Positions 9,817-57,854 of a stretch of DNA of 64,000 nt are shown here, piece after piece. Position 1 is the stretch's first letter. Each line of letters starts with the position of its first letter. Origin of the DNA: Nereocystis luetkeana (Eukaryota > Sar > Phaeophyceae > Laminariales > Laminariaceae); the NCBI GenBank assembly GCA_031213475.1, contig JARUPZ010000010.1, positions 2,907,985-2,971,984 of the forward strand, given 5' to 3'. The notes under the pieces are model-generated. The model made no database searches, had not been told where the DNA came from, and worked only from the letters and a program-made list of their open reading frames with translations. A program made the position numbers and the translations under genes.

Positions 9817-9875
<59 letters not shown>

Positions 9876-29472: not shown

Positions 29473-29734
29473 AGGCGACTACTACTGCTGCAGTTGTTTG
29501 TTTTGTGCCTTCCGTTGGACTACGTGCGTGTGCAGGTAGCGTCTTGTTTGCTTTTTTTACGTATACGAAGTATAAGGCTGAGTGGATGGGCTGGCAATGC
29601 GTCACGTTTACGTCGTGTGGTACGTCTTTTGGGCTTTGGGTAAGACCCCCCCCCCCCCCATGGCCCACGTTTCAACGTATTGGGACTGAGGATTATCACC
29701 ACGTCCGTCGGCGTACGGCTGTCTATTGGGTTCC

Positions 29735-29815
29735 ACTGCAGCAGCAGCACCAGCAGCAGCTGAAAAAGCAGCACCAGCACCAGGACCAGCAACATCAGCG
29801 GCTGCAGCAGCAAAA
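29735..29815. repeat. (CAG)-rich array
   Basis: CAGCAGCAG and CAGCACCAG units about 260 bases after the coiled-coil gene stop, so possibly in its 3' untranslated region. Confidence 0.85.
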
Positions 29816-29974
29816 GCGAATCCACATCGTTTATTTGTCAATTTTTGTTTGCGTTGGTACTCTAGTATCCCTCTCGGTATCCTCTTAGCCGCACGAGACG
29901 CTCTCTGCTTACGTGCAGTAGTCGACGCGAGACTGACTGTCGAATGCCAGGCGGGGCATTATTATTTGAAAAAA

Positions 29975-30365
29975 AATTAAAAGAGCAATCCCACGGTGGT
30001 AGGGGTGCACCAGAAAAGTTCCTTTATTAGCCCCCCACGTTAGGAGCTCAATATCTCACCCGAGACAATACTTGGAAGAACGTTGTCTGCGCCACCCGAC
30101 CGTCACTTAAATGCGCGCTATTCCGGGGGACCATAGTTAGTAGGACCAAATATTGTTATTAATAGTAGAAATGGTTAAAATATACCAGGTAGTTTTTTAT
30201 GTATACCGCAGGTCCTATTAACTATGGTTCCCCGTAATAGTCCTAAAACGAATACCTGGTACTTCGAAGTATACGAGTAAACTTTTTCATCCTAACTGCC
30301 GGTTCCTCCCTTCCTTAGGGAACTCAATCGGCCGGAAGCCTTTCGCCCAAAAAGTACCCCCCCTA
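29975..30365 (+). repeat. Interspersed repeat F, copy 2, with MITE inside
   Basis: Matches 60-300 in block order; a MITE A occupies 30121-30237. Confidence 0.6.
30121..30237 (+). mobile_element. MITE A copy inserted in repeat F
   Basis: Ends TTCCGGGGGACCATAGTTAG and GTTCCCCGTAA, flanked by TA on both sides. The homologous site in repeat F copy 1 (near 207-215) lacks it. It carries a CCAGGTA insertion at 30183. Confidence 0.85.
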
Positions 30366-30440
30366 CCGTGGGGCCACTCACAAACACCATGTCTCCGAAA
30401 TCGTGCCGTTCTGCCCACACGGAACGGGCAAAACGACCAC

Positions 30441-30547
30441 TACGGGGGACCGTAGTTAATAGGACCAAACATTGTCAGTAAAAACGGTCAAATATATAGG
30501 TTTTTTTATCTATGCCATAGGTCCTATTAACTATGGCCCCCCCGTAA
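30441..30547 (+). mobile_element. MITE A copy
   Basis: Ends TACGGGGGACCGTAGTTAAT and CTATGGCCCCCCCGTAA; core AAACATTGTCAGTAAAAAC. Confidence 0.85.
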
Positions 30548-31029
30548 TAGTCTGTGGCTCAGCTGCCCCCTCCGGTGGCCGCGCCCGCCGAGTCTTGCAC
30601 AGTTTTTCGAGAGGTTACGCTTGGTGGGTCGTGGATTGAGAAAATGGGGGGGGGGGGGTAAATACTACCGTACCCAACAAAAAAAGGGGGTCAACAATTT
30701 GCTTGAAAACATATATTAAAAAAAAACGGTAGGGGGCTGTGTTCTTTAGTGTGGTTCGAGATTTAGTGCAGACGGAATCAAACCTCAGAAAGATTGACTC
30801 CTATTGTGGGAGATCACGTGGGAGGGTTGCCGGGGGCGAGCGACGCAAGGGACGGGCCAAGACCGCGGAATAGGTGTATCACGCGCACGTGCGCGTGTAC
30901 CTTGTTGTGTGGTATGCGCTGGTCAGCCTCAGAGAATTTCATCTTGCGAGGGCGTGCTCAGTTGACCGCAGCGCATCCCCTTGCTGGAGATTTTATGGAA
31001 TTCCGAGGGGAGAGACCAAAACGGTCCCC

Positions 31030-31495
31030 ACTTTGGACAGATCATCTGCAGATAAATCATCTGCAGATAGATCATCTGCTCGATCATCTAGATGCTAGCC
31101 TGTCGTTACGATATATATATCTGGTACTAGGGATTAGGCCGGCCTTCCGTCCGGATGGCGGAGGGTCCATACTTTTGGAACTAACAGATCAACGTGTCAA
31201 AAGCCTACCCCGTAGGGTCTGTTGCTTGCTGCGCTCTACATCGCTCTCGGATGAGGTGTTGGTACAATCCCACACTCAGTTCTTGTTTTTTTTTTTTCCA
31301 AGAATCGGTCGACATCCTAGCTGTAACATATTATAATGATTGTGCAGGATCTGAATAGTATAGTGCAGATCCAACCTAGAAAGCATGTTCTAGATCATGC
31401 AGATTACGCGGCTCCCACCCGGCAACATGAGCTAGATCGTACAGATCATACAGACCATCTGCCCTGAATCATCTAGATCAATACGCGGGGATTAA
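31030..31495 (+). repeat. AGATC-rich repeat D
   Basis: CAGATCATCTGCAGATAAAT start; CAGATCCAACCTAGAAAGCA; CGGCTCCCACCCGGCAACAT; CCTGAATCATCTAGATCA end. Confidence 0.7.
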
Positions 31496-32097
31496 ATAAG
31501 TATCTCATTCCGATATATATGCGTAACAGTCCTAATGTCAACCACACAGAAAGAAACGTGAGTTTTTGTTACCAACCATTGGCAGCCCCTGGGCTCTACC
31601 GACATGAGGGTTTTTGCTACCAACCATTGGTAGAAGAAGGCAAGGAAGACGGAAATAGGGGGCCACACGCTCGAGCGCGTCGTGCTTGGTGTGCAGAGCT
31701 GCGCGTGCAGAGCAGAGGCTCACGCACAACAGCACGCGGCACGACACCGTCCGCTACCGACCGATAGGCTCGACTACTACTACTACCGTAGGTCTGCTAT
31801 CGTGGCTTTATGTATATACACCGTGCGTGAAAGGGATACGAAGCGAAAAACAAAGATCTTGTAGTACTCGAATCTATGATAGGGGCTGGCCGGACAGACA
31901 CAGCTACTGACCCCGCGAGAGAACGAGTACAGCTGACCACACGCATCAGCGCATCCCGCGCAAGAGATGCATGTTATTGTGCGGAACTCCCGGCGCGTGA
32001 TTCGATAGGGGGTCGCTTTCTGACTAAAATGTTTCTGGCTGGCGGTTCTCCTCGGGTGCCCTGACGAACTATTAATAGTAATGCACAATGGCCCGTG

Positions 32098-32172
32098 TCG
32101 CCCCCGTGGTTCAAGTGGTTAACCTCGAATTCCACTTGTTTGAGTCCTGGGTTCGAGCCCCAGGTGGGTTGG
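32098..32172 (+). tRNA. tRNA-like sequence (pseudo-tRNA or SINE head)
   Basis: It has a good T arm (CTGGG TTCGAGC CCCAG) and D arm (GGTT...AACC with GTGG). The anticodon stem TCGAA/TTTGA leaves a 9-base loop, and the acceptor ends GCCCCCG and GTGGGTT pair poorly, so a working tRNA is unlikely. Confidence 0.35.
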
Positions 32173-32476
32173 ACTTTGACTTTATTTGGAAAAATTAAAT
32201 AAAAAAAGGATTCAATTGTTGAGAGCGCCTTGCAGCGTGGGTAGGCACAATTCGATGCTAGTCGACGAGGAAGAAAAGGGCTGAAATCTTCTCGCGATAA
32301 AAAATGAAGGCACGTACCGTAGCGGGAAGGGGGTAGAAGAGCCTGCTATGTGACCCCGGATCTGAGTTACGAGTTGGAGGGAGAGAGAGAAGAAGATGTG
32401 CGAAGATAATGAATGGGATGAGCAAACAAAATACATAAATAAAAAATAAACATTGGTGTTGTGTTCTTTTTACAGT

Positions 32477-32574
32477 TTAACCCTTTTACAACCGCAGTCT
32501 CGTTTTGGGGACAAGCCACTCAAATTTCAGTAGGTTAGTCCCCAAAACGGGACTGTGGTCCTAAAAAAGAGGCT
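32477..32574. mobile_element. Foldback B copy
   Basis: TTAACCCTTTTACAACCGCA start, central GGGGAC/GTCCCC arms, GGACTGTGGTCCTAAAAA end. Confidence 0.78.
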
Positions 32575-32629
32575 AACCGTTACCTTGAAAACATAAAAGA
32601 GACCGAGAAGGGGAGACAGATTAATCGAG

Positions 32630-32639
32630 AGATCGAGAG

Positions 32640-32689
<50 letters not shown>

Positions 32690-32702
32690 AGAGAGGGAGA
32701 GA
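32630..32702. repeat. (GA)n microsatellite
   Basis: About 35 GA units with GGGA interruptions. Confidence 0.95.
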
Positions 32703-32761
32703 GCGCTTCCGAAATTACAATGTTCGACTCTATTTTAGCACCCTTACTATTAATATATACC

Positions 32762-32774
32762 AGTGTAATAAATA

Positions 32775-32821
<47 letters not shown>
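32762..32821. repeat. (TA)n microsatellite
   Basis: About 28 TA units just before the assembly gap. Confidence 0.95.
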
Positions 32822-32824
<3 letters not shown>

Positions 32825-32885
32825 TGCCTTCTGACAATGTGCAGGGCGTTATTCATTCAAAATGAAAAAGCTGACATAATAATTA

Positions 32886-32985
32886 NNNNNNNNNNNNNNN
32901 NNNNNNNNNNNNNNNNNNNNNNNNNNNNNNNNNNNNNNNNNNNNNNNNNNNNNNNNNNNNNNNNNNNNNNNNNNNNNNNNNNNNN
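32886..32985. other. Assembly gap, 100 N
   Basis: Exactly 100 N, a conventional placeholder of unknown true size, between TA/GA microsatellites and an element C fragment. Confidence 1.
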
Positions 32986-33075
32986 AGGCTCGGTCGCACG
33001 ACCATAGAAGCTCGCGCACCACAACAACGCCCGAACGGAGCACGTCGGGCTTTCACCGACCGAGCAGGAGTGTAC
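32986..33075 (-). repeat. Element C fragment, reversed, at gap edge
   Basis: GGAGCACGTCGGGCTTTCAC then CGACCGAGCAG, directly after the N gap; the rest is lost in the gap. Confidence 0.55.
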
Positions 33076-33103
33076 AAATGTTAAAGCATCGCCGCGATCG
33101 GCC

Positions 33104-33262
33104 AGGCATAGGGGGGGGGGGGGGGGAGGGAGTTTCGACCCAATCGGCGCACGCCAGTACAGCTGGCTTGGGGCACTTGGTGTATCATCTCGTATCTCCC
33201 ACCCCCCCCCCCCCCCCCCAGACAGTAACGCATGACGTGAGTACAACTCCCCCCCCCCCCCC
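33104..33262. repeat. G and C homopolymer cluster
   Basis: G18 at 33110, C19 at 33200 and C14 at 33249 within 160 bases. Confidence 0.9.
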
Positions 33263-33649
33263 AAGACAACGAACAAACGCAATACAATGGACAACAAAAA
33301 AAACGTGCGAATCACGGTACCAGATACGACGCAGGTAGGCACACAGCAGACCACGACAAAGCAGAGCAGAACGGACAACCCACCTCCACTGCTCGGGCTG
33401 TACCCAACACAGATGTAAAAAAAAAGAAACAACAAAAAAGGGGGAGGGGGGGGGGGGGGGAGGAAGGAAAGGTTTTCGCCGACTGCTCGCAGGCGTTTTT
33501 CTGTTATTTTTCAATTCCCCCTTACAAGAAAAAAGCGGCGGCTCTGTTGTAGCCTGCCTACATCAGTCGGCGAGAGGAGAGAGAGACATGCCCGTGGCGG
33601 GCGCGCTGCTAAACATGTGTGCGGGAGCACGAACAAAAAAGGGTAGCAG

Positions 33650-33770
33650 CGACAGGAGCAACAATAGCAGCAGCAGCAGCAAGAACAATAGCAGCAGCAA
33701 CAGTAGCATGGGCGGCAACAACAGCGGCAGCAGTGGAAGCACATGAAGCAGCAGCAGCAGCACGAGCGCC
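33650..33770. repeat. (CAG)-rich array
   Basis: AGCAGCAGC and AACAATAGC units; gives poly-Ala/Thr/Leu in open frames on both strands. Confidence 0.9.
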
Positions 33771-34229
33771 TCCACTCTTCAAAAAAGGCGTACCGGAGGA
33801 CTTAAGAAAAGGCGAAAGGAGCAAGTTGCAGGGGAGAGCACACAAAAAAAAAAAGCCCCAACGTTAAAAAAAAAGGAAAAAACAGACTTGAAAACTAAAG
33901 CACGTCAAGAAAGCGAAAAACAAGCTTCTCAGCAAAAAAAACGCAGGAGAGAGAGAAAAAAAAAAAAAACGAAACAAAAAAAAACAACAGGGAAATAGCG
34001 CCGCGCGAAAAAACGCAGAGCTGAGCCAAAAACTGGCGCGAAGAGAAAACGCTGAGAGCAGCTTTAGCCGATTCCACTACACTCCACAATCAGATTACTA
34101 CACAATCCTTGCTTGACCTCGGAGAACGCCACCAAAAACGTGGGAAACCTCTTCTCGCTTAGAAGAAGCGTCCAAAAAAAACTGTATAGCAAGGCGCAGC
34201 AGAGCAAGCATCACGCGGGCTGAATAAAG

Positions 34230-34410
34230 AAGGGGGGGGGGGGGGGGGGGGCGGTTAGTCGACTATAACCCCGTCCGACTCTCCCGAACGAAACGCTGTC
34301 GATGTTTTCGATCATCTTTGATGGGCTGAATAAGGAGGGGGGGGGCTGGTCGACTATAACCTTGTCCGACTCTCCCGAACGAGCGCTGTCGATGTTTTCG
34401 ACAATCTCTG
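34230..34410 (+). repeat. Tandem duplication with G runs
   Basis: A unit of about 110 bases (G run, TCGACTATAACC, GTCCGACTCTCCCGAACG, CGCTGTCGATGTTTTCGA) occurs twice, beginning with G20 and G7 runs. Confidence 0.85.
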
Positions 34411-34619
34411 ATCATCGTGGAGCCGCACTCTCGACAAGGTGGGGAACAAAAAAAAAAAGCGAACACGGTGATTCGTTTATCATTTCGTTTCGCCGCACGC
34501 GACGTGATCAGAATGGACAGCAAGAACAAAAAAAAAGCACCAAGAACACCAAGAACACCAACCAGGGCATGATTGCGCGACCGCAAGCGTGGCCGTGAGT
34601 GTTATCTGGGTCCTGATCT

Positions 34620-34998
34620 TGATCACCCTGCTGCTGCTGCTGCTGCTGCCGCTCCAACCCGGGCAGGAAAAAAAAAAAAAAACAACAACAACAACAACGG
34701 CATGACCGTGATCTCTCTTTCATGGCCCCGCTGCTGCTACGGCTGCTGCTGCTGCTACTCCTGCTGCTGCTACTGCTGCTGCTGCCGCCGCTTCTGCTAC
34801 TGCTACCACCGCTGCCATCACTTGTTACCCGTGCTGCTGCTGCTACTACTGCTGATACTGCCACGGCTGATGCTACTACTAATACTGCCACGGCTGCTGA
34901 TGCTGCTGCTGATGCTGCTGCTGCTGCTGCTGCTGCTGCTGATGCTGCTGCTGCTGCTGCCACGGCCGCCACCGCTGCCGCCGCCGCTGCCGCCGCCC
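34620..34998. repeat. (CTG)-rich array, CAG-rich on the kelch-BTB strand
   Basis: Almost 380 bases of CTG, CTA and CCG triplets, ending 20 bases from the kelch-BTB stop codon. If transcribed, the mRNA carries CAG repeats in its 3' untranslated region. Confidence 0.9.
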
Positions 34999-35017
34999 CG
35001 GAGGTGTCGGAACGACA

Positions 35018-35137
35018 TCAAGAAGCCTGTCGGAAAATAATCTCCATCAGAAGCTCGGGCTCTTGCTTCAGCTCCAAGAAGCCCGGCGTCACCTTGACTC
35101 CTTCCATGTGGTCCAGCACAAAGTCGAGAGCGATTTC
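35018..35137 (-). CDS. Kelch-BTB gene last exon with stop codon
   Basis: CGACAG acceptor, phase 0, 39 codons then TGA: EIALDFVLDHMEGVK and PGFLELKQEPELLMEIIF, the end of a BACK domain. The 3' untranslated region runs straight into a CAG-rich array. Confidence 0.92.
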   Translation of the reverse strand, partial: EIALDFVLDHMEGVKVTPGFLELKQEPELLMEIIFRQAS

Positions 35138-37575
35138 CTGTCGGTGGTAAAGCGAATGCCACGCCACAAATAAAAACGCCAAAGGCAAAAACAACAACGA
35201 AAACAAGGAAGAAGAACGACGAGATAAAATAAAAAAAATCATAATAAAAAAAATAAAAAATCATCAACGTGTTCAAGGCCACGGAACGCCACATACTGCT
35301 CGACCACGATGCTACTTTACTGAAAGAATACAATTCAAACAAACACGTTCAACTCATTATACCATCATACCCAAAAAATAAACGTAAAAACAATACCAGG
35401 TATATATTTTTTTCCCCTCTCCCCCAAGGAAAAAAAGAACGAATGCATGCCCCCCCCCCCCCGCCCCCCTCCCCCCCCCCCCCCCCCCCCCCCCCCACCC
35501 TGCCTGGTCGGTCAAAAACCCGACGTGCTCCGTCTCGGCCCCGAAGGCATGAGAGGGTCTGTGGCCACTCACACAAACGACTACGGTCATGAATGACATG
35601 AGTACCACCCCTTCCCACCTTCAGCCCCTCAGCGTTGTGCTTGTGCGCCAGAAGAAAAATGGCGCAGACGGTCTCGACTGTGATGCTCTTGCGGATAGCC
35701 TCCTCGCACAAAGTCTTCAGTCGTACCAGGAGGAACCTTTTTTTTAGGTTTCCACCCACAAAACACGAGCGAAAAAAAAAAATCGGGGAAAGGTCGGAAG
35801 CTATGTACCAGGTATTGAACTACAGCATATACCAAATCATGTACCGAAAAATGTACCGAAATAGGTACACCGAAAAATATACCAGGTGCCGAATAAGGTA
35901 TCGGACAATGTACCGAATAAGGCACCGAATCTTTCCTTTTTCGTTTCCACCCACGAGAAACGCGCGAAAAAAAATCGGGGAAGGTCGGAAGTAATGTACC
36001 AGGTATTGAACTACAGTACATACAAAATCATGTATCGACTAATGCACCGGGGGGATATACCGAAAAATGTACCTGGTACCGAATAATGTATCGGACAATG
36101 TACCGAATAAGGCACCGAACTTTACCTTTTTTTCGTTTCCACCCACAAGAAACGCGCGAAAAAAAAATCGGGGAAGGTCGGAAGCTACGTACCAGGTATT
36201 GAACTACAGTATAATACGAAAAAAACGAGGAAATGGGGTGGTTGCAATCGAATAATTTATTTTGCAAAAGGAGGGGAACTATATATGTAAAAGGCATAAA
36301 AAAAGGCAAAAAAAGGCAAAAAAAGTAAAAACAAAAAATGGCAAAAAATGGCAAAAAAAAACAAAAAAAAACAAAAAAAGGCAAAAAAACAAAACAACAG
36401 TAAAAAAGGAGGAAACACTGCTGTAGCAAAGAGCAACGAAACAAGCAGGAGAAAGAAACGCATGACTCACTGCTCGGACGCGACGAGGAGATGCACCGCC
36501 TGGTTAGCCGACACGTCCGAGAGCGCATCGGTGTAGAGGTACTCCAGAAGCTTCAGGAACACCGAGTGGGACACGTCCTGCCGGTGCCGCATACACAACA
36601 ACAAAACAACAAAAATAAGACCCCTTTTATTCTTTTTTCATATGGTCGGTTGTATCACTTTTTTGCTTTCTTTTTTCTTGTTCGTTCGTTCGTTCGTTAG
36701 TTTTTTGTGTTTTCCTTCTGTTCATAGAATGTGTATCCCGTATCCCGTACGACGAGACATGGTGGCATCGCGTTGTCTATTCAGCTCACTGCATAACAAA
36801 GTGAAACAATAATATTACGGGGGACCATAGTAATTAGGACCAAAATTTGTTATTACGGGGAACCATAGTTACAGGACAAAACAGGACCTATGGTATACAT
36901 AAAAACCTATATGTTTAACTATTTTTACTAACAATATTTGGTCCTATAAATTATGCCCCCCCGTAATAGTAAAAATAGCGAAATATATAGGTTTTTGTGT
37001 TTACCGTAGTTCCTACCAGGTATGTACTATGCCCCCCCCCCCATATTAGTACCTCTGTGGCGTAGGCTTGTGACCGCATAACTTGCAAGTCTCTAATGCG
37101 GGGGACCATAGTTAATAGGACCAAATATTGTTGGTAAAAAAAAAGGGAAATACATACAGCAGGTCTTTTGTGTGTGCCGTAGGTCCTATTTACTATGGTC
37201 CCCCGTCGTAGGATTGAAGAGTCGGCGTTGGCACTGGTTGTGCTGGAAGTCGACGGGTATAGAAAGGACGGTCTAACGCGAAGAACACACACGGTAACAT
37301 CCAGCATCATAATACAACCAACCCGATCCCCACCACCCTCATCCACCACCACCATCGCGACCACCACACACGACTCTGGAACAAAATCGAAATCATCCAT
37401 GACATATCGTCATGACATATACAGCCCAACTCCACAAATCATCACGACCAACACCATCACCAAAAATGCCTTCAGAAATAAATGCCATCGACAATCGCAA
37501 GCCCTAAATATATACGTCGACGTGCAGTATATAGAGTGCCGACAACGCGGGTAGGCACACATTTACGCCAGAAGG

Positions 37576-37626
<51 letters not shown>

Positions 37627-40600
37627 TAATATGTGACTCCGGGTCTGAAATACGACTACGGAGGGCGAAAACAGGTTTAAAAAAATAAAAAAATAAAATG
37701 TACGACTCTGTCCCGAAATATTTGGACCTAAAGCATTGCATACAAATGTACAAATAAATGGTCCTCCAATAATTTTTAGGAAAATAGTGGTATAAAAATG
37801 GGTTGCTACTGTGGGTACGTGCACTACGCGAGCTAAGACAACCAGGGCAAACGTTTTTTTCTTTCTTTTCTTTTTTTGGCGGTCGATCACAGCTGGCGAT
37901 CGGAGAACCTTTACTCCCCACAAGGGGGAACATCGTGTCGGAACCCAAGGGGAGGATACCACCATTGCTGTCTCTGGAAGTGGCCATATCGGAAAAAAAT
38001 CGACATATTGGCGCTGGCCACATCGGGAAAAAAAAACAACACATTGGGGCTGTCATCCATATGCAAGTCCGTCTCACACATCTTAGCAGGATGCAGCTCA
38101 CCCTTCATGCGACTCGCCGGACACCTCACGGCGCGTCGCGCTTGGTGCAAGCAACGTCTGACCACCCGACGTGCTCCGTCCCGGCTCTGTACGGATGCAA
38201 GGGTCTAAATGATCATACGGCTACAGCCATGCATGATATCGAGTACACCCCGTCCCTAACCCTGCTCCGTCTCGAAAGGGATACGTTGCCAATGGTCGAA
38301 CGACTAACGCAAGCAACCATTGCGTTCGCCCCGCCCCCCCGCCCCCGTATCGAGTACACGCCTCCTACCGAGTACGCCCCCCCCTCCTCTAACCCTGCAT
38401 GACGCCGTTTGCAATCCGCAGTACGTACTGCTACTCCTATGTAACATACAGCTTGCATATAGACGAATTTCGACGAAATCTTCGATCTCGCAGCTCACGT
38501 TCAAAAAACAATGATCATACATACTATATTACGGGGGACCATAGTTAATAGGACCTATGGTATACATAAAAACCTATATATTTAACCATTTTAACCTACA
38601 ATATTTGGTCCTACTAACTATGGTCCCCCGTAATAGTCGTATAGCCATGCACAGGGGCCATAGTTAACAGGACCTATGGTATACATCAAAACCTACCTGG
38701 TATATATTTAACCATTTTTACTAACAATATTTGGTCCTATTAACTATGGTCCCCCGCAATAGTCGTGTTGCCATACACACCTTGATTTCGATCTCCGTCC
38801 CTGCTTCGCTCTCCCGCATTCCCCCGTATAGCATCGCTCGGAAGTGCTCTGATCGAAGCGCCAAGTGGACTCGGCTAATTATCGTTTACAAAAGAAAAAA
38901 AAAAAAAAAACAGGCATGAAAAAACAGCGCAGCCCACGACGAAAAAAAAAAAAAAAAAAAGACGCGGAAAAACAGCGCAGCACACGAAGAACAGAAAAAA
39001 AAAACGGGGCGGACCAAAAACAAAAACGAGACAGGGAGGAAGGCAGCAACAGGCAGCAGCATCGGCGGCAGCAACAGCAGTGTTCGAATGAAGGGGGTAT
39101 CTATCGTCAGGTATGATAACCTACCTCATCACGAGAGAATGCCCCTGTTGTATGTATGTACATACGTACTCTAAATAATCCGCGTACAAACAAGCGTTTT
39201 TCGTCAACTATTTACAGCAGCGATGGTTATAATCATTCAGTGCTGTCTTAACCCCTTTAGAACCGCAGTCCCATATGTGGGGACAAACCATTCAAATTTC
39301 AAGTAGTTTGTCCCCAAAACGGGACTGCGGTTCTAAAGGGGTTAACCCATAAATGTATGTGCATGGCGTGGACAGGGGGGAAGGTGGTCGGAAAAAAAAT
39401 GCCTCGTACTATTACGGGGGACCATAGTACATCCAGGACCAAATACTGTTGGCAAAAATAGGGAAATATTCAAGTTTTTGTGCGTACCGTAGGTCCTATT
39501 CACTATGGTTCCCCGCAATAGGTATATACGTCGATGAGTTTTCTCTCACTCATCCTCCACACAGGAAGTGCAGGCTTGAAAAATGTACCGTACATCCTCC
39601 TTGACTTCTGCAGCTTCATATAGGAGTTGTATACCAGGTATCCTATACAAGGCTATATAAAAAACCCGTAGCAAACACGATCGAGTAAGTATCATACAGC
39701 TTGCAAATACCTGGTACGAGTTTTTGTTGCCGGTATTTTTTTATGAAAGATACACGTATCGCGCAACAGTCAAGCAGAAACATTATCAGCATCACTTACC
39801 AGGTATAACTTATAACCCTGTTAGCACCCAAGTCCCGATTTGGGGACACACCTGTCAAATTCCAGGTGGTCTGTTCTCAAAACGGGACTGCGGTCCTAAA
39901 AGGGTGAAAACTTCCTACGAAACCCTTTTAGGAATGCGACAAAAAAAAAACGCCTCGGACTGACATCACAGATCATGATCTACGTATCTACCTACAGATG
40001 GATCATCTAGTTCCTTCATCACCTGCTGTTGTGAGAGGTCGAAAAGGGATCTATCTGTCTATAGTACAGATATAACCCAAGCAACACACGACGCAGAATA
40101 TACGGTCCCACCCGACAGCATGAGCTAAAATCATACCTGGTACCGCTCATACAGCTCATACAGATCATACAGCTCACACAGATCACACAAGATCGGGAAT
40201 TCCTCTACAACCCGCCTTGAACTCCGGCGGATTGGTGAAGTGAAAGCTAAAACAAAAAAAGAGCTCAAACCCTTTGAGGATTCTGCCGTTCCTCTTTGGA
40301 TCAGTTTTGGGGGTACAAACTTTCGCACGTATTTTGGAGTGGTTGGTCACCCAGAACGGGACTGCAGTGCCGAAAGGGCTAAAAGCAGCGTCAGCTACAG
40401 TACCTCTCGACAGCACAGGCAGAGGATCACGTTGCGCCCCGCGCCGCACGCCTCCTTGTTGCATTCCACCAGTGTAACACACCCGGACGCCAAATACGAT
40501 GTTTTATCCTCTCGCAGAAGAAACACGCAGTGCCTGCTGCGGTTGGTTGCCGTATTCGGCACTTTTCGTTTCATACTCGACGGTGTCCCTCTCTGAACGC

Positions 40601-43600
40601 CCAAGCGGGTTAATCCTTTTAGAACCGCAGTCCCGTTTCGGGGGCAAACTACTTGGACTTTGACTGGATTGCCCCCAGAACGGGACTGCAGCCATAGAAG
40701 GATCAGGCTCACCGCACCCCCCCACACCAGGATATAACATACATACGTGCCGTGCGCCGAGTGAGCCCCGTCTCTTCCGCAGCAACAGCGGAACAAGCCG
40801 CGGCTACCTCGGGGGCGCTGACCCGACCGCAACGTGAGGCATCTGCTGCAGTATACGCGCAGGCAGCGCGGCGATACTCCTGCTGACGTACGTGCGTGCG
40901 TGCGTACATCTTAATACACGCTCCATTCAGACTGCGCTTGTTTATTTTTTTTGGACTCTTTTTTTTTTTCGTGTGTTTCCAGCGCTGTCGCGTACTGCTA
41001 CCGGGGGTCAGGTACATCCACACCTGGCGCAGAAAGAAAGAAAAAAAACAACTACATGTGGTTGCCGAGCCAAACTCTTACTTCTACTATTACGGGGGGC
41101 ATAGTTAATATGACCAACTATTGCTAGTAAAAATGGTTAAATATGTAGATTTGTATGTATACCATAGGTCCCATTAACTACGGCCTCCCGTAAGACCGCA
41201 AGAATCAACCCGAGTAGGTTTGTGCCCAAAATGCTGAGCGCAGTTACTTCTAAACCCGTCATTAACCCTTTTGAGTAAGTACTGCACTAAATACGTCCCT
41301 AAATAAATTTAACTCGATTTCCAAGCGTTTTAATCCCCACAATGGGACTGCAATCCGAGAAGGGGTTTAAGATTAAGACCAGCCTAAAAAAGCCCTTGTA
41401 TGTCCTATTTTTTCGTGCCAGCCACATCGCTCAGAGCTCTTGCCCCACACGCATGAATCTGGTTCTCCCGGTAAGTTTTCGCGCAAAAGTTCGAGCCAAA
41501 ACGCCCTTCAGAGCTGCAAACATGTTTTTTTTTGGGCGGGGGGGGAAACTATTAATATTTGGAATTATTCGAGTGGAATTTTATTTTTCTTGCAGCATGT
41601 ATGTACATGAAAGGGTCAACACGCCCATTTTCGTTTTACTGTGGTTGGTGTTGTGGCGCAAAAAGTCGAGCCGAAAAAGTTTTCAAAAATTCGCAATTTA
41701 TGATGACGTGTTGTGTGTGTCTTCACATTAAACCGTTCTTTCTACCCGTCGACATCCAGCACAACCAGTGTCCGTGCCGATTCTTCCATCCCAGACAGAT
41801 ACATGTTATGTGGTCACAAAACTACGCCACACATCAGAGATACTACTGTACGTTGTTATGCAGTAAGCAGATGGCATACAATGCGACGCCATGTCATCGT
41901 ACCGGATACGACAGGCACGACATACACGTTCTACGAAAGAGAGATAACAAAAGGAAACCGACAAACGAACAAACAAAACCAAGAAGCAAAAAGCAAACAA
42001 ACAAAACAGCACCACTACATACCACATACAACATATGAACAGAGTAAGACTACTATTAATAGTAAGAACCCGGCGCACACCACCAGGTATTCAATAGTAC
42101 CTGGCGTATACGGGGAAGCCGTCGACGATGAACGTCACGTCGCTGAGCTCCCGGTTGTTGACCAGCCTGCGCATATCCTCCTGGAGAGTAGGCGGCGGAA
42201 CCAGTAACGGTTGGAACCTCCACTCGTAGAAGTCGTTCAGGACAACCTGACATAAAAACATCGAGGAGGGGGGGCGGCGGCGGCGGCGGCGGGGGGGGGG
42301 GCGGGTACTCATATGTTGCTTGAATTATTAACAGTAATTTGACCATTGAGCACGACTCCTTGCGAGACCGAAAAGCCACCATCCCTACTCCGGGGGGCGG
42401 GGGGGGTCCCCCGGGCTAGCGGGGGGGGGGGGTCCCCCAAATCAGCGAGGGGGTCCCCCGGGTTACGTTATATTAATCATAGTGGGGGGGGTTTCGTCTC
42501 CAGGGTCACGTGGGATAAACCATGGATGGCGGGGGGGGGGGGGGGGGTCACGTCGTATGAACCATATCGGGGTGGGGGGGTCCCCGGGGTCACGACGTTC
42601 TTATTATATTGGGGGGAGGGACGGAAGGGGGGGTCCCCGAGGTATCATGATATGCACCATTTCGGGGTGGGGAAGAGACCGGGGGGGGGGGGGGGGGGGG
42701 GGGGGCTCGGTCCCTGGGTCAAATGAGGGGAGACTGGGGGGAGGGGTTCCGGGGGATCAGGTGCTAAACAGTATATTGGGGGGAGAGGGCGGAGGAGGGG
42801 GGGGGGGGGTTCAAGCGGCACTATTACTGCGGTAAGTACTCATTCGCTGCTTGCCTTACTGCTTGCCTTACGTAGTCCCTTGACCATTGACACGCATCCC
42901 TCTCCAGACGGAGAGGGGGGGGGCGGGGTAGTAGAGAATGGGGGGGAGGCAACAACCCACCTGCCCGTTGTACCCTCCAAAGATGAAGAGAGAGTTTCCG
43001 TGGACCTGGGCGACAAGGCTACTCCGGCCCGTCGGAACGTCCCCGTGGGGGTCCTGGGCGAGAACGGTGGGCGGGGGTGGGGGGTGGGCGGTGGGGGTGG
43101 AAAAGCGAGCAAGCAATGGTGCGCGGGTGGTTTGCCATTCTTACGTACGAAAAGAACGTAACCGTCTCTCAGAAACTTGCTTGCCAGTAGTTAAGAGGGC
43201 AAATAAAAAAAAAAAAAAAAAAAAAATGAAATAAAATGAAGGCAACACCGAAGGTTGTACACAGGGCGCTTCGCTTCACGATTCATGAACCCAACGGTTA
43301 GGGTAAGGAAGTTTTCGAAGTCTCTCGGTCGGGCCGAGTTGGGTTGGGCCGGCTCGTACAAAGAGGCTTTCACATTCTCACGGATCGGGCCCGGGTCATC
43401 GTGACCCCGCCCGCGAAATTTTGACCCGTCCCGTAAAACGACAAGGAAAAAAAGGAATGCATGATCACACCGCCCGTCATTGCTTGGTTAGAGGGGCGAG
43501 GGGGGTGTACTCGATCGGAGAGATGTACTCGATCCCATGCATGGCCGCAGTCGTATGACCATAGACCCTCGCATCCCTACAATGCTGGGACGGAGCATGT

Positions 43601-46600
43601 CGGGTTTCACCGACCAGGCAGACATTGCTTGCACCAAGCGCGAAGCGCCATGACAGCGCGGGGGGGGGGGGGATATACTCGGACTTCGGGTCACAAATAG
43701 AACGAGTCGAGCCACACGACACGGTTACAGCTCGGTCCTCCTACCCCCTACAGTTTGTTTGCACGCTCGTGGTTTTATTGTGTGCACGCACGTTCACAGG
43801 CCCACTCTTAACTCTACACACATATCCACACCATGGACAGATCATACAGATCATACAGATCATGATCTATCTGTCTACTATAGATCATATGATTCCTCAC
43901 TTGCCGCTGCGGGCGTTTGTGCAGGATCTGCTTAGTACAGATGCAACCCACCCAGGAAATATAAAAAATGTGTTCTGTACGAGTAGATCATGCAGGTGAC
44001 ATGGGTCCGTCCCACCCGGCAACATGAGCTGTAGATCCTACAGAGCATACAGATCATATATCTGCCTCGAAGTATCTAGATCATGACCTGGGCATAGATT
44101 ATCTGCATATGATCTGTATATGATCTGTCCATGATTACTCCAAGGTGTGAGCAAATCACAGCCCTCTTCCTTTTTTTACCCTAATATATACCAGGGTATC
44201 GCGCAACCCCTATATAATTATACGCTACTGCAACATATCACAGCCCTGACTACAAGTAATCCCCGAAACAATCGGAGCAATTGAAATCGGAATCGGCAAA
44301 ATCGCGGCGATAATTTCGCCCCATCATGTGCCGGTGTACAAAACTAAAAAATCGATTTCGCGCGTATTGTCAAGAGAGAACGAAGCCAGACGGCCCTTTT
44401 TCTTTTGTTGCCCTCGTCCGATATATATCGGCTCCGCCCCCCGATATATCGGGCATCGGCCGCCCCGAAGACAGAAAGTTTTGAATATCGCTCAACACAA
44501 CCGATTCACGATCGTACAAACTACACGTTACGATATCGGACAGTCCAAAGTATTACCCAAAACAATCGGAGCAATTTGGGACGGAATCTTTATTGCCGAT
44601 GTATTGCCGTTGCAGAAAATACTGAAATACGCACGGATTGCGAAAAGAGAAGTAAAGCCAAATCGCCACTTTTTTTTTTTTTTTGGGGGGGGGGTGGAGC
44701 TCGTCCGATATATAGGCTTCGATACCCGATATATCGGGGATCGGGTGCGCCGAAAATCGATATTTTAAATATCGGCAAACGCAGCCGTTCAAGTATATCA
44801 ACCCTACTTACTGAAAAACTACACGCTACAACATCTCACAACCTTCAACTATATGTATACCCTCCATTACGACATGCCTCCGTACGATATGTAGACCACG
44901 TATGTAGACTCACGAGCTCTTTCCAGGTGCCGGATTCAAAGTCGTGCTGAAAGAAATCGCACAGCCTGTCGGAGCCGTTGTAGCCGCCGAAGACGTACAT
45001 GCTCCCGTTGTGAACGGCGCAGGAGTGGAAGTAACGAGGCGTAGGCACGTCACCTGCATTTTGGGCGACGACACACAAAAACAAGAAAAAAACTGTGGAA
45101 TTACCATCCCGTCTCGTCTCGTCCCGGCCCGGCCCGGCCCGGCCCGTCACGGTCTTCCCATATCTACCGTCCCGTCAAATCACCACGTTACACTTTGAAA
45201 TTTTTGAACTTTTTTTTTCTTAATTTTTCCGAAATTCATTTTGGAAAATCTGGTACGTCCGTAAATCCTGTAGTTTTTCGTTTCGTTTTGGGAACCATCA
45301 GTCTTTTTGGCCTTAACTGCGGCGAATTGGAAAAATTGGGAAAATGAATGAAAACCAAGCGAGCCGGTTTTGCCCCTGTAGCCCATGAGTATTTCCACCC
45401 TTACCAACACATTTTATACACCTGTACGAGCGTATAAGAGGTACCTGGTAAGAAAAATACCGAGGATGAAAGAATAGGGAACAACATTGGAGGCAGCAAT
45501 CGTCACAACAAGATCAAAGCCATACACGATACCACTGCTGCTGCTGCATTTTCTTATCCCGAAAGTTTGGGGTGCGGGGTGTACGGTAAAAATAATAAAT
45601 GAGTGCAAAATAGTTTATTTTTTTCTTGACTTCGGGTAGACAAAACATACGTACGTAGTACGTACGTACGTACGTTCCACAAGTGTCGTACGTACAGTTT
45701 AGTATATATGCCTGCACGGAAGAAGTACCCGGTACAATTGCTCTTGTACTGTACAGATCCTGCGCAGCACCTCAGAATGGCAGATCAGGATCTAGATTCT
45801 CTATCTGTGGATGATCTATTTGTAGATGATCTATCCGTAGTTGATTTTTCTGTAGATGATCTATCTGTAGATGATATATCTGTAAATAGTATGTCTGTAG
45901 ATTATGTATCTGTAGCTAATATATCCGCAAATCATTTATCTGTGGATGATCTGTGTGTAGATGAACTATCTGTAGGTGATATCTCTGTAGGTGATCTATC
46001 TGTAGATGATATATCTGTGGGTGTTCTACCCGTAGATGATCTATCTGTAGACGGTCTATCCGTAGACGATCTATCTGTAGATGATATATCCGTAGATTAT
46101 CTAATTGTAAATGATCTATCTGTAGATGATCTATCCGTGGATGATATATCCGGAGATGATCTATCCGTAGATTATCTATCTGCACATGATATATCTGCCG
46201 AAACGGTGAAGTATTTCTCATGCGCCGCCAGTGAACACATTCACGTTACGCTACGCCACTCTTGCTTTTTCGCCCACTCACCCACGCCCGGAATCTGCGC
46301 CCACGTCATCGTCTCGAGGTCGCAGCGGTAGAAATCGTTCATGCGCTGGCAACAGACGTCGCATTGCGTTGCGTTGCGTTATGTCGTGTTACGTTGCGGC
46401 CAAACGAGGGGGGGGAGGGGGAGGGGGGGGGGGGGGGCGGCGGCACTTATTTGTTGAAGGTGTCTCATTTTTGGGCGCTCATTGCGTTATTTCCATACAT
46501 ACAGTCTTACGGTGGACCATATTACATAGAACCTACGGCCCATACAAAAACCTTTATATTTCGTTATTTTTACTACACAATATTTGGCCCCCTATTTACT

Positions 46601-48008
46601 ATGGTCCCTCGTAATAGTACCTAAAAAAGTTCTTCCTCATATTAGCAATAAACCCTTGCTGTTTGCGCTTTTGTCGGAACCATCTCCTATTAATAGGATG
46701 GCGATCGTTTTCTCGCTATTATGAATAATAGTATCCACTGTAGTGTATCAACCTTCTCAATGTGACAACACGATTGCGGGGGGAGGGGCAAGAGAGGCGG
46801 CACCGAGGGAAAACAAAGCCCATAAAAACATGAGAGCTTCGTATCGTACCTCACGCGAAACGGACGTACCGTAGGGAAGATATGAAGGCTCAAACTCGAT
46901 GAAACCCTTAGTCTAGGCCCTAACGAAAATTATTGTGCAACACAAGATGGATAAATTACCCGGTAAAATTCCTTAATTGAGGAGCCCAACAAATTATTGT
47001 GCAACACAAGTGGGATAAATTACCCGGTATTTACCCCGTAATTCCTTCTTCGAGAGGCCCGAAAATAATTGCGAAATACAAGTGGGATAAATTACCCGGT
47101 AATTACTGGGTAATTCCTAAGGTGAGGAGTCCCAAAATTATTGCGCAATACAAGTGGGTTGAATAACCCGGTACTTACCGGGTAACTCCTTAACTGAGGA
47201 CCGCAGTCCCGTTTTGGGAACAAACTGGTCATAATCTGAGTGGCTTTGTCCCCAACAACGGGACGGCAGTTCTGAAAAAGGGCAAGGGTTTCCTATCGTA
47301 ATAATCCCCCTCAACCATTCCAGGGCCGCAGTCCCGTTTTGGGGACGAACCACTCCGAATTTGACTGGTTTGTCCCCAAAACGGGACTGCGGCCCTGGAA
47401 TGGTTAAATAGGTTGGGTTAGCAACGGTGGGCAACGACACCATAAAACCAGCCGCTCGCTACGTGAGCTAGACAACCAGGGTACTGTTTTTGTTTGTTGT
47501 TTTATTCGCGGTAAGTCAAAGCGGGTGGTCGCGCTAGATCATTTGCGCGGGGTGGAGAACATTTACTCCGCACAAGGGGAATGATTGCATCACGTAGTGT
47601 TTATGGAAAGGCACCCACGAGGCAGCTACAGAGTACCCCCCCCCCCCTCCATTCCGGTCTCTGGAAGTGGCCAGCCACACCGGAAATTAAATCAACTTAT
47701 TGAAGCTGTCATCCATGTGCAAGTCTGCCTCACAAGCGGTTCTTGGCAGGATGCAGCTCACCCTTCATGCGACTCGCCGAACACCTCACGGCGCTTCTTT
47801 CGCTTGGTGGAAGCAATGTTTGCCTGGTGGGTGAAAACCCGACATGCTCCGTCCCGGCACCGTAAGGATGCAAGGGTCTATATATGGTCATACGACTTCG
47901 ACCATGCATGATATCGAGTACACCCCCTCCCCCCCACCCACCTCCGTCTCGGCAGGGGATGCGTGGTCAATGGTCAAAAGACCAAGACAAGCAACAAAAA
48001 TGAGTACG

Positions 48009-48057
<49 letters not shown>

Positions 48058-49586
48058 CCCCATCCAACCTCCACCTCCAACACGCCCCCTACCCATCCCC
48101 TACCCATTTTCACCTGCACCCCGTCGTACCCTCCGAATACGTACACATTATCACCATCCTTGCACCAGCTGGGGCAGGACCGGATGCTCGGGAGCTGACC
48201 CGAGGTCTCCACCTCCTCCCACAGAGACGTGTCTTAACAGGCAAAAAAAACGGAGAATCGAAAAAAAAAAAAAACAGAAAATCGAAACGCGGACAACGGT
48301 GGCAACAGATCAGCACCACACCCCCCCCCAAAAAAGCAGCGACAAAAAAAAAACAAGATAAAACAGCAGCACCGAAGAAGCAGAAAATCGAAAAAACAAA
48401 AAAAGGGGAAAAAAACTAAAATTGCGGGACGGGGGGGGGCGAGGGGGGGGGGGGTGACATAAAATCGGTCCCCTAGATACAGTTGCGAGGAGCTGTGCGG
48501 TACGAGCGCCGCATCACCGTACCAGGTGTACGTGTGGGCGTTAACGCTGCTCCTAGTGGAGACGGCTGCCAACAACACATTCATCATCGCTTTGATCGTT
48601 TCTTCGAGGCGTCCCATGAGGGGTCATAAACACCATGGGTCGGGTCGAATCGGGTCCGGTAAGCGTGACCCGATCCGATCCGATCCGATCCGATCCGATC
48701 CGAGAGTCCGAAGACCTCCCGACCCGACCCGACCTGACCCAACCCGCGAAATGGGGTCATGACCCATGAAGCGCCCTGATTAATCGATGCTCGTACTCGT
48801 GCGGCCTGCCCCCCCCAGACTCACCAAAGTTGAACCTATGCATATCGTTGAGCCAGGTGGTGCCGTCGTAGCCTCCGAAGAGGCAAAAGTAGTGGCTGTG
48901 GACCACGGCGACATAGCCAAACCGAGAAACCGGAGGCGCCCCGGCCGGCTCCACCTTACTCCACGTGCGCGTCTCTGTTTTCGATCGACGCAAAAAAAAA
49001 AAAAAAAAAAACGCATTAAAAATAAAACAATCCACATAAAAAATTCAGATGGATTTAAAAAAAAACACTCGCATTAAAAACCAAAACAATCCACATAAAA
49101 AATTCAGATGGGTTTTTTTCAACGAAAAAACACACGTGCTCATTTTTTATGTACGACGTTAACGAATATTTTGAAACGAAGCCCGTGCAGTTCGAATACT
49201 CTTTCGTTTCCAGTAACGGACAATCGGAGGCGCCCCAGCCGGCTCCATCTTTTTTTCACGTGGGGGTCTCTGTTCCGAAAAAACAAAAATGAAACCTCAA
49301 CTTTAAAAGGATGAGAAATCAACTCAAACACAAACCTCGCGTGAGAAATTCAGATAAAAATAAAAACAACACAAGACATATACGGAGTATATATTTTTTG
49401 TAGCAACAGGTGAAAACAAAACTATTTAAAAAAAAAACATACGAGTACATACCTAGAATGTACTTGTTATCACTCACATTTCATAGAGAAGGTCCGGTTC
49501 AATCTTCAGTTTAGCTCCAACTAAACAACTTAAAAACGGAAAGGCGAAGAATAAAAAAAACTGAAGAAAAACAAAACAACGAAAAA

Positions 49587-49681
<95 letters not shown>

Positions 49682-52600
49682 CCAAACAAATCGAATTGAA
49701 AAAAAAAAAAAAACAGAAAGAACCAAAACAAATCGAAACCTTAAGGGAAGAAACACACGCACACGCCTCACCGATGTGAAACCCGTGGAAGTCGTTGAGC
49801 CACTGGGAGCCGTTGTAGCCCCCGAAGAGGTATAGAGACCCCTTGTACTCCACCACCCCGTTGTTCTCCCGTACCCCCGGAGAAGGCCCGTGACACTTGA
49901 CTTCCTTCCAATCTCGAACCCCTGTGCATAAATCACACGGACCACGCGCAGCACACTTCCTTGTGTCAAGGCTACAATTACCGGTGTACATCAGTGGATA
50001 TACTTTGAAGGATGACAAGGATAATACAGATACCGTGGGGCGGAGGAGAGGTGGGGAGGGGGGGGGGGGGGGGGGGGGGGCGTACTCATTTGTTGCTTGC
50101 CTTAGTCATTTGACCATTGACCACGCATCCCTTTCGAGACGGAGCACCGTTCCTACTCCTAATAGAGACACCTCCAACAATTGGGCGCTCATTACGTTGT
50201 TTCCATATATTACATGGAAACTTTTTGCTAATCTTATCCCCTTCCTGTTTGGCCGCCTGTGGCCACCATCTATCTCCTAGGATAGCGATCGTTTTCTCGC
50301 TGCTATCTAGAGGAGGAGGGGGGGGAATGCACACACAGGTGCGCATCACACGACCACACGCACTGCTGTCTTCGACCATGTACCGCATACCAGATAACAT
50401 TCAAGATAACACACACACAACCCTCTCTCTCTCCCTCCCTCCCCTCGGGCTAATCCCAACGCTGGGTGAGCATACGTATCACCTACTCCCGATTTGATCT
50501 GATTGGCTCAGGCCGAGGGTTCAGGGTTGCTCTGATTGGCTTATTATGGTCAGGTTGAGGGCCGCTCAAATCGGCTTAGGGCTAGGGTTAGTTGCCATTC
50601 ATCCTGTATAAAGTAGTGTGTGTCAGCCATTTTCTCGAGTAAGCTTGGGAGATGGGGGAGCGTGTAAACGCCGAGCAGCGCGTCCACGGAAATATATCTC
50701 GACGAGAAATTTCCAAAGCCCCCCCCCCTCCCGTTTCGTGTTGTGTGTACCCCCATACATTCACCCTTTTAGAACCGCGATCTCGTTCCGGGGGCAAAGC
50801 ATTCAAATTCCACGTATTAATAGTTTGTCCCCAAAACGAGGCAGCGGTCCCAAAAGGGTCAAGGCTTGAGGCATGTTTCGGATAAAATCGACGCCGAAAA
50901 TAATTCCGGGGGGGGGGGCGAAAGGTGCATGTGCAAACCGCGGGCGTCACACGGAAATACGCATGTGCAAGCCGCGGGCGGGCCATACTGGGGCAACAGA
51001 CTACAGCAGGATAAGTCGTGAAGAGTCAATAGCACAATTGTCAGTATTACCACACCATAACTAAAACCACCAAACACAAAAAAAACAGCCAATCTCAACC
51101 CTCCGTTCGACAACTACACTACCACCAACACCAACTCCAACAATACCAACACCACCACCCACACCAACGTCACCTCCAACTCCTACACCAAACCAACAAC
51201 AACGCTAACACCAACGTTGATACCACTTCCAACCCCACTGCCAAATCAAACACCACCAACACTAACACCGAAGCTAAGACCATCACCAACACTACCGCCA
51301 AATCCAATACGAACACCTGTACCAAGCCCACCACCACCTCTAACCCAGACACAACCTCGCCGAATCCAACACCAACACCAACCCCAGCACTCAGCACCAT
51401 CTCCAACCCCAACACCACACCACCACCCCCACCTCTAACCCAGACACAACCTCGCCGAACCGAACACCAACACCAACCCCAGCACTCAGCACCCTCCAAC
51501 CCCAACACCACACCACCACCACCACCACCACCGCTAACACTGACACCAACGCTATTATTACGCGGGGGCCATAGTTAATAGGACCTATGGTATACATACA
51601 TTCCTATAAATTTAACCATTTTTACTAACAATATTCGGTCCTATTAACTATGGTCCCCCTTAATAGCACCACCACCGTATCTACCAAGAGTCAAACGAAA
51701 ACAATCTCAACAGTCAAGAGTCGAGCCATCCGACAATCGACTGCAGCATTCAACACCCACCAAAATCGAATTCCCAGAAGTCGTCCAATCGCCCGCTGCC
51801 GCCGTACCCACCGAACATGAACATCTTAAAGCGAGCCGAGCGAGAGTGCAGATAAGGCGTGCCAGGTTACAGGGTGAGGGTAAAAGCAAGGCAAGGCAGG
51901 GCACGGGTACGGCAAGACAAGCCAAGGCGAGGCAAAGCGAGGCAAAGAAAGGCAAGGCAAGGCAAGGCAAGGCAAGGCGAGGCAAGCCGAGGCGAGGCAA
52001 GGCGAGGCAAGGCGAGGCAAGGCAAGGCAAGGCAAGGCAAGGCAAGGCAAGGCAAGGCAAGGCAAGACAGGGCAAGGCAAGGCAAGGCAAGGCAAGGCAA
52101 GGCAAGGCAAGGCAAGGCAAGGCAAGGCAAGGCAAGGCAAGACAACGCAAGACATCACAAGGAAGGGCAAGGCAAGGCAGGGCAAGGCAGGGCAAGGCAA
52201 GGCAAGGCAAAGCGAGGCAAGGCAAACCAAAGGCAAGGCAAACCAAGGGCGAAGCACAGGCAAGGAAAAAAACCCAATCGTTTTCAATCGCGCGCGACGT
52301 GGGCAGTCAATCGAGCACACAGACAAGGCAGACAGATAGGCATACGTACAGAGAACAGACATCAGACAGACTCCTTCACGGCCCGCAAAACACCACCAGT
52401 TCCCTACTCTAGTACGCACATAGCAAACATCTTTGGTGCGTCATGACGAACTTTCTCGTGCTTAAAGAGGCATGCTACGACACGTAGGGATAGTACTTTC
52501 GGCCTTTTTTTTCTTCTCCTGACTGACCGGCCTTCTTGATCCAAAATCTGTTCGCACACCAACAATTTTTCACTCTTCAAGCGTTAAGATTTCGTGATAT

Positions 52601-52987: not shown

Positions 52988-53235
52988 CTGCCGCCTGCTC
53001 AGTGGCGCGGGGAACAAAAAACGCCTAAACAACGGCCATAAAACCCCGTACCACTCGATCCCCAAACATAAGGACATTTTGTATTAAATATTAGGATATA
53101 AATGGTCCCACAAACTCGTGACTACATCACCAATACATTTTACAACGTCCAATCTTGAAAACCAACCACACGCACATCGTCGAGAACCTATCCCCGTCCT
53201 ATACATATATAGGCACGCCTGATGATGGTGATGAT

Positions 53236-53264
53236 CTCCCCCCCCCCCCCCCCCCCCCCCCCCC
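53236..53264. repeat. Poly-C run
   Basis: About 28 consecutive C. Confidence 0.97.
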
Positions 53265-53298
53265 TTATTTTTTAACTTGCTACACCCCCGAGATTCTA

Positions 53299-53404
53299 TT
53301 ACGGGGGACCATAGTAAACAGGACTTACGGTACACACAAAAACCCATACATTTCCCTATTTTTACCAACAATATTTGGTCCTATTTACTATGGGCCCCCA
53401 GTAA
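53299..53404 (-). mobile_element. MITE A copy, reversed
   Basis: TTACGGGGGACCATAGTAAA start, reversed core CCAACAATATTTGGTCC, GGGCCCCCAGTAA end, TA flanks. Confidence 0.82.
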
Positions 53405-57840: not shown

Positions 57841-57854
57841 GTGATGGCAGCAGC

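Follow-up and report, generated by a model that had tools for sequence, protein, structure and literature searches.

The abundant word TACC(A/T)GGTA of the Nereocystis luetkeana genome as a probable excision scar of DD39D mariner-like transposons

The word TACC(A/T)GGTA in the window and the genome

The window, the whole 64,000-nt stretch of DNA analysed here, contains TACC(A/T)GGTA 30 times where 0.42 occurrences are expected (the largest count among 100 shuffles was 4), with A at the centre of 17 sites and T at the centre of 13. The original prediction, which took the word to be a transposon excision scar, pointed to two neighbouring copies of a repeat, MITE A, one with a plain TA and the other with the same TA plus 7 bp, and both copies are present as described. 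We use the term scar for the word throughout. The relevant features of the window are listed below.

2968..62524, no strand: all 30 TACCWGGTA sites of the window, by word search
2968..2976, no strand: scar in a - strand MITE A copy, at the core TA
30183..30191, no strand: scar in a - strand MITE A copy, at the core TA
35806..36198, no strand: scars at 35806, 35997 and 36190 in a tandem repeat of ~191 bp, with a further scar at 36070
37014..37022, no strand: scar at the second MITE A TA (TTAA-TA-GGACC)
38529..38636, + strand: MITE A copy with the TA still empty (...AAAACC-TA-TATATTTAACC from 38559)
38654..38762, + strand: scar-bearing MITE A copy (...AAAACC-TACCTGG-TA-TATATTTAACC from 38678)
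38694..38702, no strand: scar TACCTGGTA, 7 bp inserted at the TA inside this MITE A copy
62326..62343, no strand: two adjoining scars TACCTGGTATACCTGGTA, neighbouring TAs having been used repeatedly

The scars at 35806, 35997 and 36190 are probably a single scar that was multiplied with the ~191-bp repeat unit. Across the 465,085,209-base genome, TACCWGGTA occurs 182,395 times compared with 1,744 for the reversed word, while the variant with C or G in place of W occurs 10,882 times (reversed control, 1,899). In a 264-kb sample that combines the window with 20 segments of 10 kb taken from contigs 1-3, CCAGG/CCTGG ranks at the top of all TA-N5-TA words, with 85 occurrences against 2.2 expected. 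The second-ranked word, CCCTC (56 in the same sample), looks like the product of a local satellite. Ladders of scars with a common TA were found at 5 of 60 sites in an unseen set from contig 1. Scars one mutational step away from the word also exceed a simulated background, both for transitions (41 versus 15.4 expected) and for transversions (48 versus 36.4 expected), and the existence of these mutated forms means that at least some scars are not recent.

A 7-bp insertion at TA within MITE A

We compared the joined flanks of 87 single-TA scar arrays with the sampled loci. Among the matches listed were MITE A copies with a plain TA exactly where other copies have the scar. For a census of this site, 38 rows with a match to the left half of the core were inspected by eye. 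Six rows (five that are not MITE A copies and one too diverged) and two duplicate places were removed, which left 30 copies. The core TA is empty in 22 of these, including two in which the TA itself is mutated (53329 and L028:609), and scarred in four (38694, 30183, 2968 and L020:6350). One copy has a scar at a neighbouring TA (L023:975), one has the shorter form TACCATA (7468, - strand), and two hold a mariner-like element at the core TA (C32 and C35, on contigs 32 and 35). Because the empty state is the commoner one among the aligned copies, the seven bases are derived and not ancestral to the MITE, the case that the original prediction had named as speaking against it; the clean 7-bp insertion at TA that it proposed is borne out.

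The same prediction held that three further MITE A copies, at 2911, 30121 and 36967, differ from the core in the same manner but at different TA sites. All three do carry the insertion, but the scars of the copies at 2911 and 30121 (2968 and 30183) lie at the same core TA as 38694, and only the copy at 36967 uses another TA (scar 37014). The copy with scar 38694 and the three further copies thus use two TA sites, not four. The second of these sites is scarred at 37014 and at L028:592, and both scarred and re-occupied on contig 19 (C19, L093). All four core-TA scars have a T centre in the same orientation, and may therefore in part reflect one event copied along with a MITE A subfamily.

Target preference of the scars

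Positions 1-8 of the outer flanks favour T, A, T, A, n, T, A/T and A/T, based on 165 flanks after exclusion of 5 tandem ones. The chi-square reaches 58 per position within this region and drops to ~1 at positions 9 and 10. In a cross-validated flank score, scars lie 12.9 standard errors above ordinary TA sites (z 12.9), and the score holds on unseen data outside the training set (z 10.1; 60 contig 1 sites, 120 flanks). As expected, TATATA-like words also score highly. The scar flanks therefore show a palindromic, AT-rich preference typical of transposase targets, and this preference holds across unrelated sequence contexts. A target of this kind is known for the Tc1/mariner element ZB, described as a “palindromic AT repeat” in the available text of PMC7913693.

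Shorter and longer relatives of the scar

A 6-nt relative is also abundant genome-wide. Its A version, TACCAGGGTA, occurs 11,422 times (control, 409) and its T version, TACCTGGGTA, 1,578 times (control, 362), so that the 6-nt joint amounts to ~6% of the 5-nt scar count. In the 264-kb sample, target flanks accompany the 4-nt form TA-CCAG-TA (z 5.3, n=18) but not TA-CCTG-TA (z -0.2, n=14); as the bare counts are nearly equal (18 versus 14), this asymmetry rests on the flanks and on tandem arrangements. The 3-nt forms score z 4.3 for TA-CCA-TA (n=38) and z 1.9 for TA-CCT-TA (n=23). The pattern TACCAGN{0,3}CTGGTA was found at 1,001 places genome-wide compared with 108 for its control, and among the 50 distinct places listed, 30 have a CCAG 4-nt scar in tandem with a 5-nt scar, with TACCAGCTGGTA (4) and TACCAGGCCTGGTA (1) among the other forms. 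The A-not-T asymmetry of the 4- and 6-nt siblings indicates that the third base of the overhang is A rather than T.

TA-CAG-TA was considered as a second class of scar, given its 105 occurrences against 27 expected. It is not among the best 45 words by target flanks, and we take its excess to be due to CAG/CTG-rich sequence. Two further arrangements were observed: a satellite on contig 1 with one 6-nt scar per unit, in which TACCAGGGTA recurs seven times at intervals of 528 bases (G000:C1:1305185-1308362), and a short segment in which filler separates the two half scars, TACCTGG-TTTATATTATTTATG-CCAGGTA (L008:2560, - strand), which is possibly an aberrant joint.

A DD39D mariner-like family and its short relatives

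A DUF7769 profile search of the genome gave 19 matches. We take DUF7769 to be the N-terminal domain of plant-type mariner transposases. At L042 on contig 35, a 560-aa open frame matches DUF7769 with an E-value of 1.1e-10, above the cut-off of the profile, and HTH_Tnp_Tc3_2 with an E-value of 1e-5, below its cut-off. The frame thus carries the N-terminal DNA-binding helix-turn-helix of the DD39D group, chiefly by the DUF7769 match. It also contains D294, D416 and D456, with 39 residues between the second and third Asp. These residues, assigned by motif and spacing, are presumably the catalytic triad of the D...D-39-D family motif; the catalytic part had no match in Pfam or PDB. At least 84 pieces of the genome match the L042 DNA, which is rearranged, its 3' part being inverted compared with many of the matching copies listed. 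No relatives of the transposase were confirmed in viral contigs.

In the end pieces of the copies, the element ends centre on TA-CC-AGTCYGACAWWWWATATA. Among 33 recognisable ends in the 42 stretches scanned, eight read exactly TA-CCAGTCYGAC, the commonest form among the larger copies, while the remainder differ at their first bases or at more internal positions (CCACTC, CCCAGTC, CCAGGTCC, CCWGGAGTC, C-AGTC and others). Genome-wide, the exact 12-mer end TACCAGTCYGAC occurs 224 times (control, 63), roughly 80 elements with exact ends if the whole excess is paired. A 23-nt end with up to 3 mismatches occurs 1,236 times (control, 35), and many of the listed matches with 2 mismatches represent a CCAC-type end.

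Six elements of ~570 bp, chosen for the paired ends seen in the 23-nt search and not a random sample, have CCAGTCCGAC at 12 of 12 ends, and each of the six lies between TA and TA. Their terminal inverted repeats read CCAGTCCGACA... at both ends, and the larger mariner-like copies have similar ends. The duplicated TA target is seen in all six and again in the element on C32, which sits at the MITE A TA. Five of the ~570-bp elements are 96.7-98.4% identical and the sixth is ~64% identical; the close likeness of the five suggests recent movement.

Several neighbouring observations concern repeats around this family. At C22:131895-620353, nine equal-score matches to the mariner-like element lie ~47-70 kb apart with an inverted end piece near each, a pattern that reflects either an extensive repeat array or a feature of the assembly. 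A broken mariner-like transposase gene harbours a MITE A copy (L044:2065), which means that MITE A, too, was mobile once that element was in place. The left end of L042 and L045 read TA-CCWGG-AGTCYGAC where others read TA-CC-AGTCYGAC, as if half a scar were fused to the element end. Another repeat family starts with TACCACTCYGTCCC or nearly so (L012, L025, L027 and, on the - strand, near position 12840 of the window), a start that resembles Stowaway ends. With a CCAC end unable to self-anneal, this family would leave no uniform scar on excision.

Elements and scars at the same sites

When scored on the target preference of the scars, 18 element ends, irregular ones included, reach z 5.4. The core TA of MITE A exists in three states within this genome: empty, scarred, or holding a mariner-like element, at C32 (L083 on the left, L084 on the right) and at C35 (L085 and L086). 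These are paralogous sites of one genome, and both filled loci have irregular element ends. The C35 locus has a scar in place of the outer left element end, lying between the target TA and a TA further in, and on its right side one element end is nested within another; both features would fit self-insertion followed by excision. Of the six ~570-bp elements, two lie directly against a scar (L093 and L096), and that of L093 occupies the second MITE A TA, the one scarred at 37014 and L028:592. The scar itself has the composition of an excision footprint, with TA, terminal bases of the element and TA, since the CCAG of the element end is contained in it. The first four bases of the family, its target preference, its occupancy of the MITE A TA and its abutment on scars all fit a DD39D source.

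Proposed mechanism and length of the overhang

The excision-scar reading is supported by these data, and TACC(A/T)GGTA is likely the scar left by this DD39D (plant-type) mariner-like family and its ~570-bp non-autonomous relatives. In the mechanism that we propose, elements with the ends TA-CCAGTCYGAC...GTCRGACTGG-TA would insert at a TA inside an AT-rich palindromic site. At excision, the cuts would fall at the TA on one strand and ~4 nt within the element on the other, so that each flank keeps a 3' overhang CCAG. The two overhangs would anneal as C-A-G against C-A-G with one A.A mismatch, one base would be filled in on each side, and repair of the mismatch to A.T or T.A would turn TA into TA-CC(A/T)GG-TA. 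Slipped or trimmed joints could yield CCAG (4 nt) and CCAGGG/CCCTGG (6 nt). The new TAs would again be targets, giving rise to ladders and to elements lying against scars, and other repeats afterwards copied part of the scars. With so few elements set against 182,395 scars, the majority of the scars could instead stem from a relative that is extinct or escaped detection, and the role of this family in making most of them is inferred. Much of the original prediction agrees with this scheme. Its reading of the word as the excision scar of a Tc1/mariner-type element is supported, as is its derivation of the W centre from an A.A mismatch that would be repaired either way. The kinship it saw with the Sleeping Beauty scheme also stands, since CAG would again anneal with an A.A mismatch.

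Its overhang finds no support in the form proposed. The original prediction called for a 5-base CCAGG overhang, whereas the elements end in CCAGTCYGAC and a 4-base CCAG gives exactly CC(A/T)GG. We enumerated the joints for the overhangs CCAG, CCAGG, CCAGT, CCAC and CCA. With CCAG, the CC[A/T]GG joint forms two matched pairs beside a single A.A mismatch; the 4-nt joint has two matches and two mismatches, and the 6-nt joint has no matched pair. With CCAGG, four of five pairs match at the 5-nt joint and two of four at the 6-nt joint. For CCAC and CCAGT, CC(A/T)GG is not the favoured joint, and the scars that CCAGT predicts are nearly absent from the 264-kb sample (ACAGT 1, ACTGT 1 and CCAGT 3, compared with 85 for CCAGG). 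CCA forms CC(A/T)GG without any matched pair, and the CCATGG that it predicts was seen twice against 85. Within the excision reading, a 4-nt overhang is the likelier choice because the element ends read CCAGTC. The footprints of two members of the DD39D group, Osmar5 and Ppmar2, measure 1-4 nt, as given in the accessible portions of PMC9632168 and PMC1925063. The frequency of CCAGGG is the main point for a 5-nt overhang, which keeps some probability because it explains this 6-nt scar more naturally; that a joint with no matched pair from CCAG reaches ~6% of the 5-nt count counts against our preferred explanation.

Number of excisions

The genome-wide figure of 182,395 is a count of words and not of excisions, since other repeats copied some scars. 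Among 141 scar arrays with 50-bp flanks, flanks and site are common to 45 pairs involving 38 arrays, and 103 arrays have no partner in the set. The shared cases comprise a six-member family with five members on contig 1 below 115 kb, MITE A and local tandem repeats, and three scars are common to L011 and L147-L149. Among the 81 arrays of the 264-kb sample, same-site pairs occur only in MITE A and in one local tandem repeat. The Chao1 estimate from the 141 arrays is ~780 distinct events, a floor given a small and partly clustered sample, and the true number of excisions may lie anywhere between ~780 and 10^5.

Alternative explanations

An element with CCAGG ends, from an extinct or unsampled subfamily, could have made the scars by the same process with a 5-nt overhang. 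Such a source would pair better at the CCAGGG joint, and a few copies do have CCAGG-like ends (TACCAGGTCC in L059, TACCWGGAGTC in L042 and L045). However, CCAGTCCGAC stands at every end of the six ~570-bp elements, plain TA-CCAGTCYGAC is commonest among the larger copies, and the DD39D relatives Osmar5 and Ppmar2 leave shorter footprints (PMC9632168, accessible text). The original prediction had proposed a search for elements ending in TACCAGG...CCTGGTA; among sampled loci, TACCWGG...CCWGGTA pairs with inverted inner sequence gave nothing convincing, and 89 TACCWGG without a following TA in 264 kb show no continuation more than 3 times. We consider this source unlikely. An origin from another TA-specific transposon, unrelated to the DD39D family, is less probable still. 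In its favour, the DD39D copies are few compared with the scars, and pogo-like DDE_1 genes are present (28 matches in a genome profile search). Against an unrelated transposon, the first four bases and the target preference of the DD39D family are the fitting ones, and the family occupies the MITE A TA and abuts scars. Profile searches of the genome gave no matches for DDE_3 (PF13358) or for Transposase_1 (PF01359), the latter with a control that was likewise silent. Eight pogo-like loci (L029-L036) have no fitting TA-bounded inverted repeat, and extension of the best one revealed none.

Two other readings concern the word more than its maker. CCWGG is a methylation target and HIP1 is a motif of cyanobacteria, and a short palindrome with a W centre spread across the genome could be a selected or functional site of this type, or a protein binding site. 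This is very hard to reconcile with a clean 7-bp insertion in repeat copies, with ladders that share a TA, with 4- and 6-nt siblings that show A-not-T asymmetry, and with outer flanks that carry a target preference, and we regard it as highly improbable. A more serious contender, though still on the unlikely side, is that most copies spread passively inside other repeats after a modest number of real excisions. The 38 arrays with a homologous partner at the same site, L011 and L147-L149 among them, and the low Chao1 floor argue for it; the 103 arrays without a partner, the restriction of same-site pairs in the 264-kb sample to MITE A and one tandem repeat, and a flank preference that extends across unrelated contexts argue against it.

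Comparison with known systems

The footprint of Sleeping Beauty, TAC(A/T)GTA, has a W centre that arises when CAG overhangs anneal with an A.A mismatch. The scar described here would share this origin of its centre but has one extra C per side, with 5 nt rather than 3, and belongs to a different transposase family. Mos1 mariner, a DD34D element, has an end that begins with CCA and a 3-nt overhang that does not self-anneal. The CCA start is common to both systems, and the 3-nt footprint TACCATA is a minor form here (z 4.3, n=38), whereas the 3-nt overhang, the lack of self-annealing and the DD34D transposase set Mos1 apart.

The closest likeness is to the DD39D or “PlantMar” elements (Osmar5, Ppmar2) and Stowaway MITEs, which like the elements here combine a DUF7769 and D-39-D transposase with a TA target, short inverted ends and small derivatives that share the element ends. 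The family has been reported from flowering plants and a few oomycetes (PMC7325037, in part). Its footprints consist of TA with a small number of terminal bases, which come to 1-4 nt in Osmar5 and Ppmar2 (PMC9632168), and those of Stowaway are similar (PMC1925063), in the available text of each. The ends here read CCAGTCYGAC, compared with CTCCCTCCGTCCC in the primers of PMC4561436 (accessible part). The footprint here is also uniform, self-annealing and present in ~10^5 copies, whereas those of Ppmar2 are called diverse (PMC9632168) and five were described in the wheat study (PMC1925063), according to the accessible text of both. Footprint studies have followed a handful of excisions each, in yeast, cell culture or one gene (PMC1925063, PMC9632168 and PMC7913693, as far as their available text goes). 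In the main text of a study of Ectocarpus transposons (PMC12477816), as far as it was available, the words “footprint” and “excision” occur 0 times, and among the titles listed by searches of the open literature, which takes in few subscription papers, there was no genome-wide count of mariner scars. The mechanism and the footprints of the superfamily are known; the end sequence, the scar, its scale and the ratio of scars to elements are new within the literature searched.

Implications for transposon history

If the excess of the 12-mer is all paired, giving ~80 elements, there are more than 1,000 scar copies per resident element with exact ends. We tentatively suggest, with more doubt than confidence, an excision-dominated genome, in which the DD39D family has long been mobile at about a hundred resident copies while scars piled up to ~10^5, more than 1,000 per element. 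If this is true, either the balance lies strongly with excision rather than amplification, or insertions are removed efficiently by the host and scars are left behind. The scars would then preserve many thousands of end-joining events in a natural record that can be dated.

A strongly over-represented short palindrome is not necessarily a functional motif, and this case is a caution in that respect. With ~10^5 uniform scars, the history of a transposon can be read from its scars once the elements are gone. The set allows target preference and the outcomes of end joining (5-, 4-, 6- and 3-nt joints) to be measured in nature. Mutated scars could date the activity of the family, and the set as a whole raises the question of why excision so outweighs gain.
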